A stretch of DNA of 44,907 bases. Origin: Candidatus Saccharimonadota bacterium. GTDB taxonomy: Bacteria; Patescibacteriota; Saccharimonadia; Saccharimonadales; UBA4665. The position numbers and the translations under genes are program-made. Below, in pieces: positions 19,303 through 44,584 of the stretch. The stretch is taken from contig JACMNI010000026.1 of the NCBI GenBank assembly GCA_014378615.1, forward strand, positions 1-44,907, read 5' to 3'. Below the pieces are notes generated by a model. It ran no database searches. It had not been told where the DNA came from and worked only from the letters and a program-made list of their open reading frames with translations. Numbering within the stretch: position 1 is the first letter of the stretch; each line of letters opens with the position of its first letter.

Positions 19303-19896
19303 TTAGGAACTTTTTCTAGCAATAATGAGCGCGGTAGAGCTTACCAATTCCTGTCCTTGGTGTGTCTGAACGGGTCTCGCCACCTCTCTATAGTCGATAA
19401 TTTGCCACCCCGTATTTAAGTAAGAGCTTGCTAATTCGCCTGGAACAAAACATTGTTCTCGATTTTTTGCAGCTAACACATCCTCAGTAACTAAATATCC
19501 ACTTACCGCATTCAAGCCACCAATTTTTGTGAGTCCTCTCATTATGCGAAGTACATTTCTAGAATCTCTTTTAGACATAAGGTGAAGTACTTGATTTGAT
19601 AAAACAGCGTCGAATTGAGACGAAAACATAGGTTGACGGGCGTCTCCTACTACATACGAAACTCGGCCATCACAAGGTTTCATTGCAGCACTTCTAGTTT
19701 CAGCAAAATCATTACTGACTGCCACTACATGATGGCCTTTTTCGCTTAAATAGCGTGAGTTTCTGCCAGAGCCACAACCGTAATCAAGTATTACTTGTCG
19801 AGTCAGGGCATGTGCAGCCATGTAACTTGCAAGTTCAGAAATAGTCTCGCCTGGAGCGGGCTGGATATGGCATTCGTTGTTTAAGTTTTCGCTCAT
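19303..19896 (-). CDS. Class I SAM-dependent methyltransferase
   Basis: The 197-aa protein has the SAM-binding motif VILDYGCGSGRNSRYLSEKGHHVVAVS, the post-motif acidic block YVVGDARQP and FDAVLSNQVLHL, as in small-molecule methyltransferases of the UbiE/TehB type. The substrate is unknown. Its stop lies 1 nt from the convergent pth stop. A terminator hairpin of the upstream structured RNA ends 28 nt before its start codon on the same strand. The gene may therefore be expressed by read-through of that RNA, or be controlled by it. Confidence 0.82.
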   Translation of the reverse strand: MSENLNNECHIQPAPGETISELASYMAAHALTRQVILDYGCGSGRNSRYLSEKGHHVVAVSNDFAETRSAAMKPCDGRVSYVVGDARQPMFSSQFDAVLSNQVLHLMSKRDSRNVLRIMRGLTKIGGLNAVSGYLVTEDVLAAKNREQCFVPGELASSYLNTGWQIIDYREVARPVQTHQGQELVSSTALIIARKSS

Positions 19897-19923
19897 AATA
19901 ATTTAAGTTTCACATGTGTTACA

Positions 19924-19966
19924 TAAAAAGGCCAACAAGAGGGGGTGGGCACCGCTTGTTGGCCTT
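19924..19966 (-). terminator. Terminator of the structured RNA, just upstream of the methyltransferase
   Basis: A perfect 12-bp stem AAGGCCAACAAG/CTTGTTGGCCTT with a 15-nt loop is followed on the minus strand by TTTTT. It ends the RNA gene at about 19924 and stands 28 nt before the methyltransferase ATG. Confidence 0.85.
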
Positions 19967-20298
19967 ATTTTGTGGAGAACCGAAATTCTCCACACCACCC
20001 TTCAACCCACCCCAGCGAAGCATCGTCGTCTAAATAAATGACGCGTGCCGGGATAAATCCCACCATTTAGGCTCGCTTTGAATTGGGGGCCCGTAGCAAC
20101 ACGAATGCTGCCTTGGACAGTTAAAGGGGTTAGTATGCTTTAGAGCCTGTCTATTTACATAGACGTGCAAGAGTAAGTGGAGGGTAACAACTAACTGGCG
20201 CGACTCTAAAACAACCTAACAGTTGGTCTAAACCTTTACAGGTCTAGCTGTTAATTTTGGGGGTTAAAGGTGCTTGGTTCTACTAAAAGAACTCACGA
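19924..20298 (-). ncRNA. Highly structured ~375-nt RNA, identity unknown
   Basis: A consensus promoter and a strong terminator frame about 375 nt with no ORF. Hand folding of the minus-strand RNA gives several independent helices. CUAGACCU-GUAA-AGGUUUAG (GNRA loop) is closed by AACAG/CUGUU. GUUUUAGAGUC pairs with GGCUCUAAAGC over 11 bp and encloses GUCUAU-GUAA-AUAGAC. GCAGCA-UUCG-UGUUGC and GUGGAGAAU-UUCG-GUUCUCCAC both carry UUCG loops. A long-range CACCUUUAACCC/GGGUUGAAGGGUG pairing joins the two ends. The size resembles tmRNA or RNase P RNA, but neither the tmRNA T-arm/tag nor the RNase P GAGGAAA core is present. It may be an independent ncRNA or a very long leader of the methyltransferase. 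Confidence 0.75.
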
Positions 20299-20304
20299 TT
20301 AGCT

Positions 20305-20333
20305 ATTTTAGCAAAGATATTACGTAATGTCAA
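20305..20333 (-). promoter_or_regulatory. Consensus sigma-70 promoter of the structured RNA
   Basis: On the minus strand TTGACA (20333-20328), a 17-nt spacer and TAAAAT (20310-20305) form one of the strongest promoters in the window. Transcription should begin near 20298. Confidence 0.85.
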
Positions 20334-43631: not shown

Positions 43632-43909
43632 CTGCCCTCTTTTAGTTCTTTAATCACTTAATCATACCATCAGTTTGGATTGCATTTCGGTAATGGTTAA
43701 ACTTGCAATAAAATGTTCTGAAATAACAGGGGCTATATATAGCGTCACGCCTCCAAGTATTGACACTAGATTTTAATCTAAGTATGCTTAAGATTGTGTG
43801 TTTTTTCTATGAGAGTGGATAAACACCGTGCCTACCCCTGTTATCTCAATACAAACAATAGAAAATATTAATGCATTTTGGATAACGATCTGGGGAATAA
43901 GGAGGGTAA
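43632..43909 (+). promoter_or_regulatory. Promoter and leader of the LysM-Rpf gene
   Basis: A consensus promoter is present: TTGACA (43760-43765), 17 nt, TATGCT (43783-43788), TSS near 43795. The spacer contains the palindrome TAGAT-ttta-ATCTA (43767-43780), a candidate operator. A 10-bp inverted repeat, ATAACAGGGG upstream and CCCCTGTTAT in the ~115-nt leader, flanks the promoter. A strong ribosome site AAGGAGGG lies 4 nt before the ATG. The left part (43632-43700) shows nothing. Confidence 0.75.
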
Positions 43910-44584
43910 ATGAAAAGATTATTATTAACCGCGGCCGCTGTTGTGTCGACGCTAATTTCTACTGGTGGTTTAGCCAGTGCGAGCGCACCTAATAAGCACC
44001 CGATTAAGAAAGCGGCAGCAATTACGGCGCCAGCTGAGCCGGCACCTAAAATGGTCAATGTCCAAGACGGCGACTATCTTAGCAAGATTGCCGACGAACA
44101 GAATACTACGTACTTACGTTTGTATTATGCTAATACAGCCATTGCCAACCCAGACCTGATATTCCCTGGTGATGCTGTCCGTGTTCCAGAACCAACCGAA
44201 ACTTTGGCTGCTCGTGAGTTGCCAGTTACGGCGCCAGTTGCTGTGCAAGAAAAAGTTGCAGCTGACCCGACGGTTGACACCCAGCCGGCAGCAGCAGTCG
44301 CGCCCCGCGCAACGCAGCGTCAAGCCGTTGCAGCCCCAGCAGTAGCTGGTGGTAGCGTTTGGGATAAGTTAGCAGCCTGCGAAAGCGGTGGCAACTGGGC
44401 TATAAACACCGGCAACGGTTTTTATGGTGGACTGCAGTTTACTACCTCTAGCTGGGCCGCCGTTGGTGGATCTGGATTACCAAGTAACGCCAGCCGCGAA
44501 GAGCAAATTGCTCGCGCAACCACATTGCAGTCTATGCAAGGATGGGGCGCCTGGCCCGCCTGTAGCGCAAAGCTCGGTTTATAG
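43910..44584 (+). CDS. Secreted LysM + Rpf-like transglycosylase
   Basis: The 224-aa protein has a signal peptide ([26 protein letters not shown]), one LysM peptidoglycan-binding domain ([46 protein letters not shown]) and a Pro/Ala/Val linker. The C-terminal domain is of the resuscitation-promoting-factor/lysozyme-like type ([39 protein letters not shown]...[16 protein letters not shown]) with the catalytic Glu in ACESGGNW and paired cysteines. Rpf domains are otherwise typical of Actinobacteria, the usual hosts of Saccharibacteria. It may remodel its own wall or act on the host wall (inference). Confidence 0.93.

Follow-up and report, generated by a model that had tools for sequence, protein, structure and literature searches.

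A gene of about 375 nt on the minus strand of the window, the 44,907 nt stretch of saccharibacterial DNA analysed here, probably specifies a trans-acting antisense RNA that would block translation of hsp20 across an order of the Saccharibacteria. A probability of about 0.68 is given to this reading on the basis of sequence comparisons. The RNA is a new family, absent from Rfam, of a known kind of trans-acting RNA. It has its own promoter and terminator and is encoded apart from hsp20, and a segment predicted to be accessible both complements and co-varies with the hsp20 initiation region. The features referred to below are as follows.

20305 to 20333, minus strand: sigma-70 promoter, TTGACA-17-TAAAAT, with an extended -10 TG
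19925 to 20298, minus strand: the RNA, about 375 nt, with its start placed approximately 7 nt past the -10
20259 to 20273, minus strand: conserved 5' element, GCACCUU..ACCCCC, capable of weak pairing to the 3' strand
20203 to 20220, minus strand: 5' strand of helix P_A, GUUAG..UGUUUUAGAGC
20173 to 20204, minus strand: antisense module of 32 nt, GUCGCGCCAGUUAGUUGUUACCCUCCACUUAC, complementary to the hsp20 ribosome-binding site, start codon and codons 2-3
20179 to 20190, minus strand: exposed hairpin loop (anti-Shine-Dalgarno), UUGUUACCCUCC
20129 to 20146, minus strand: 3' strand of helix P_A, GCUCUAAAACA..CUAAC
20120 to 20128, minus strand: central strand of helix P_B, CCCUUUAAC
19998 to 20006, minus strand: 3' strand of helix P_B, GUUGAAGGG
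19925 to 19966, minus strand: intrinsic terminator, with a covarying stem and an invariant apical loop, GCGGUGCCCACCCCCUC (19955-19939)

The promoter matches the consensus at 11 of 12 positions (TTGACA from 20333, TAAAAT to 20305) and is kept in the 85 homologous loci extracted except for two, one of which (G038) is the hsp20 gene itself, caught through the segment that it shares with the RNA. The terminator is a perfect hairpin, GGCCAACAA...UUGUUGGCC, followed by a T-run, with the transcript end at about 19925. Homologous RNAs are 309 to 444 nt in length, with a median of 382 nt. The initial annotation had described this promoter and a perfect terminator delimiting an ORF-free RNA, and is upheld on each point, with the promoter on the minus strand and the extended -10 TG added; no ORF on the RNA strand is longer than 46 aa, the length of the longest one. 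The GNRA and UUCG tetraloops that it proposed also hold. GUAA and UUCG hairpin loops are present in the predicted fold, the minimum free energy (MFE) is -140.3 kcal/mol compared to a mean of -103 for shuffled sequences (z -6.3, with 0 of 100 shuffles equally stable), and helices P_A and P_B are conserved with compensatory changes.

No family in Rfam 15, which includes 6S, SRP, RNAIII and the large ncRNAs, reaches its gathering cut-off on this RNA, and a permissive Rfam search returned chance matches alone, far below the cut-off and mostly on the terminator hairpin. The earlier statement that no family can be named is therefore borne out, as is its rejection of tmRNA and RNase P RNA. Although its size would suit a divergent version of either, the RNA matches neither the tmRNA covariance model nor ARAGORN, nor the covariance models for RNase P RNA, and both genes are elsewhere in the genome: ssrA on contig C44 (4739-5131, L031, 50.4 bits) and rnpB on contig C50 (14875-15237, 254 bits). 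The probability that the RNA is one of these two is close to nil. The tmRNA of this genome is barely over the Rfam cut-off (50.4 against 47 bits), thus the tmRNA of the Saccharibacteria appears to be divergent.

BLAST identified homologues in 85 of the 93 genomes from the GTDB family to which this genome belongs, with identities outside the genus of approximately 65-75%. Covariance model R1 detects the RNA in 145 of 295 genomes in the class, and the matches listed are all in the same order. Outside the order it is in none of the genomes listed from a phylum-wide sample of 380, an absence that is provisional given the stricter filters applied there. In GTDB r220, 76 contigs match a pattern based on the 3' part. 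Most carry the label Saccharibacteria or Saccharimonadia, and a few are labelled otherwise or simply 'bacterium'.

The RNA is present as a single locus within a conserved pth-dprA-topA neighbourhood. Among the RNA loci compared, Pth is a neighbour in 133, DprA in 85 and TopA in 92. This bears upon the earlier suggestion that the RNA could be a very large regulated leader, taken here as a riboswitch-like 5' leader of the downstream methyltransferase, the ATG of which (19896) is on the same strand and 28 nt from the terminator end. However, among all of the RNA loci compared, a methyltransferase match adjoins the RNA at the locus of this genome only. Synteny shows no conserved association with the methyltransferase and so refutes the leader, which is now highly improbable. 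The adjoining class I methyltransferase gene (19303-19896, minus strand) appears to have been inserted recently, separating pth from the gene for the RNA.

Compensatory changes in the homologues are abundant in P_A, P_B and the terminator stem. Neither of the outcomes that the initial annotation would have taken as a refutation, a significant Rfam hit or a lack of such changes, has occurred. Helix P_A has 17 predicted pairs, 8 of which show two-sided compensatory changes. Helix P_B (CCCUUUAAC/GUUGAAGGG) forms 9 out of 9 pairs in all 79 of the 79 testable relatives and has independent double changes to CCCUUUAAG/CUUGAAGGG in genus g24 and in g12, to CCCUUUAAG/CUUAAAGGG in G071, and to CUCUUUAAC/GUUGAAGAG in G035. 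The terminator stem covaries at nearly all positions and its 17-nt loop, GCGGUGCCCACCCCCUC, is invariant in the family. One helix originally proposed fails, the 12-bp end-to-end pairing. This is present in the MFE fold of this sequence, but was rejected as the main closing helix, since its 3' strand covaries with the central CCCUUUAAC instead. The end-to-end helix and P_B are mutually exclusive because both use the same 3' strand, and covariation backs P_B only. A pseudoknot between GGGUGGG and the CCCACCC of the terminator loop was also considered and set aside, the f2 genomes G247 and G195 having lost GGGUGGG and kept the terminator loop. Within the family both sides are nearly invariant, making their covariation uninformative. 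The terminator-loop core, UGCCCACCC, is kept in other families, even those without the possible GGGUGGG partner (L318, L319).

Inside P_A, a hairpin exposes UUGUUACCCUCCA, which in predicted folds has a mean unpaired probability of 0.80, compared to 0.34 for the whole RNA. The loop core, UACCCUCC, is invariant in nearly all relatives. Its target was sought with a genome-wide BLAST search and a background of gene starts from the window. In the search (E<=10, against an assembly that is 74% complete), the best non-self antisense match of the RNA is the translation start of hsp20 (E 3.9e-5), located on another contig (G000:C46) and encoding a product with an HSP20 domain; the remaining matches are to the RNA's own terminator hairpin or are at chance level (E 0.14 and 3.1). 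Complementarity between the antisense module and hsp20 is interrupted only by one mismatch and, at the start codon, a bulge of 2 nt; it gives 16 contiguous pairs and a duplex of -53 kcal/mol. For the 46 gene starts in the window, the mean is 5.7 pairs and the longest match is 9. The Shine-Dalgarno sequence of hsp20 is unusual and strong, with GGAGGGTA-N-ATG being found at three sites in the genome. The sequence GCCAU recurs just upstream of the loop in relatives; it resembles a further contact, to the start codon of hsp20, but is not counted as one, as in several of them it also pairs with a downstream UGGC within the hairpin.

Orthologues of hsp20 are present in approximately 65 of 92 genomes of the family and carry GGAGGGU-type sites in almost all genera except g39. 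Of the genes found with a GGAGGGTA-type Shine-Dalgarno sequence, hsp20 is the only one to recur across the family, the others sampled being lineage-specific.

The variation seen in these sequences indicates that the loop and the hsp20 translation start have co-evolved. Across the order, RNA-hsp20 pairs from the same genome were compared with permuted pairs, taking one genome from each of 20 families, which limits bias in permutations made without an explicit phylogeny model. The longest match is 11.35 for own pairs and 10.20 for permuted pairs (median p 0.0005, max 0.0065), and the duplex energies are -31.9 and -28.9, respectively (max p 0.001). Within the family, at the genus level, the scarcity of variation in both partners leaves the test little power and the signal weaker, with a mean p of 0.003 (max 0.041) for energy and of 0.07 for the longest match. 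There are also matched departures, where the RNA and hsp20 have changed together. In G237 (...GUAAGACGUAU) both change to GUGGAGGGUAAGACGUAU, over 18 nt, in G090 (...GUAACACAA) both change to AUUAGUGGAGGGUAACACAA, over 20 nt, and in G318 (...GUAAUAACA) both change to GAGGGUAAUAACA.

These matched changes weigh against the RNA being a housekeeping structural or protein-binding RNA, with invariant C-rich elements that contact one another or a protein, the match to hsp20 being secondary. Such a ribonucleoprotein role would fit the near-universal retention of the RNA in the family, the strict conservation of P_B and the terminator loop, and the presence of this loop in G247 and G195 despite the loss of its possible GGGUGGG partner. 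It is unlikely, however, as it explains neither the loop variants that track hsp20 variants across families nor why the loop should be a perfect anti-Shine-Dalgarno sequence.

It is also possible, with the odds somewhat against it, that the RNA acts as a general anti-Shine-Dalgarno hub, whose CCCUCC loop represses several mRNAs with strong GGAGGGUA sites, hsp20 merely being the most conserved of these. The loop is retained in three genomes in which hsp20 was not found (G086, G007, and G046, each 97% complete) and in genus g39, although the hsp20 Shine-Dalgarno sequence has diverged there. The same Shine-Dalgarno sequence is on an Rpf-like gene here (43901) and, in relatives, on genes for Ni-superoxide dismutase, RecA, aquaporin, and GroEL. 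Yet among the genes sampled none besides hsp20 recurred across the family, and complementarity and co-variation reach past the Shine-Dalgarno sequence into the hsp20 spacer (G237, G090).

The Rpf-like gene (43901-44584, plus strand) encodes a secreted protein with Transglycosylas (PF06737) and LysM domains. Its Shine-Dalgarno sequence, AAGGAGGGTAA, is directly before the ATG; just three GGAGGGTA..ATG sites occur in this genome, and this is one of them. The gene may be a second target of the RNA. In relatives, the GGAGGGTA Shine-Dalgarno sequence precedes the genes for Ni-superoxide dismutase, RecA, and GroEL (L179, L183, L188, L193, L283), hinting at a stress-related set.

The trans-acting antisense RNA proposed here probably has a role beyond hsp20, since the loop persists where hsp20 was not found and where, in g39, its Shine-Dalgarno sequence has diverged. 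The conservation of P_B, of the 5' element, and of the terminator loop exceeds what a role confined to hsp20 would require. Lineage-specific second targets, or a protein partner, are plausible.

Under the proposed mechanism, transcription would start at the strong housekeeping promoter and end at the RNA's own terminator. Helices P_A and P_B would form a rigid scaffold presenting the hairpin loop UUGUUACCCUCCA. This loop, extended in this genome to the full module (20204-20173), is predicted to pair with the hsp20 mRNA from the Shine-Dalgarno sequence through the spacer to the start, which would stop ribosome binding and keep Hsp20 synthesis low. Repression is the predicted direction because the pairing covers both the Shine-Dalgarno sequence and the start codon. 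Release of Hsp20 would follow removal of the RNA, its displacement by a competitor, or its melting from the mRNA, possibly through heat or stress.

Exposed C-rich loops complementary to mRNA Shine-Dalgarno sequences are known from RNAIII of Staphylococcus aureus, itself a large RNA of approximately 500 nt, and from sRNAs of the RsaE/RoxS type. By their general description, these resemble the present RNA in being structured and in directing a C-rich loop against Shine-Dalgarno sequences. It differs from them in lineage, scaffold, and predicted target, in the order-wide conservation of a single locus, and in having no Rfam match. Small heat-shock protein genes are also controlled at translation by the ROSE and fourU RNA thermometers of hsp20 (ibpA) genes, which mask the Shine-Dalgarno sequence. 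The thermometers act in cis, within the leader, whereas here the masking strand would come from a separate RNA gene.

The nearest functional analogue found is DnrH of Deinococcus radiodurans, which has its pairing site within the hsp20 coding sequence (91-117 nt) and increases the level of hsp20 mRNA (PMC6798082). Both are trans-acting RNAs directed at hsp20 mRNA, by predicted pairing in the present case. Unlike DnrH, the pairing predicted here is over the ribosome-binding site and start codon, and repression is the expected outcome. No described regulatory RNA of the Saccharibacteria surfaced in a search of open-licence papers.

A more speculative extension, and a doubtful one, is that the RNA serves the whole order as a master regulator of the stress response, a switchable scaffold on which several invariant C-rich elements each address different mRNAs. 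Were this true, those elements would be the hairpin loop, the 5' element, and the terminator loop, and Hsp20 and other stress genes would be held off until freed upon heat or host-related stress.

How members of the candidate phyla radiation regulate their genes after transcription is little known. This RNA has a fold that is supported by covariation and a target that is predicted by co-evolution, making it directly testable. If the proposed antisense role is true, the RNA and hsp20 would form a deeply conserved regulator-target pair by which a chaperone is controlled.
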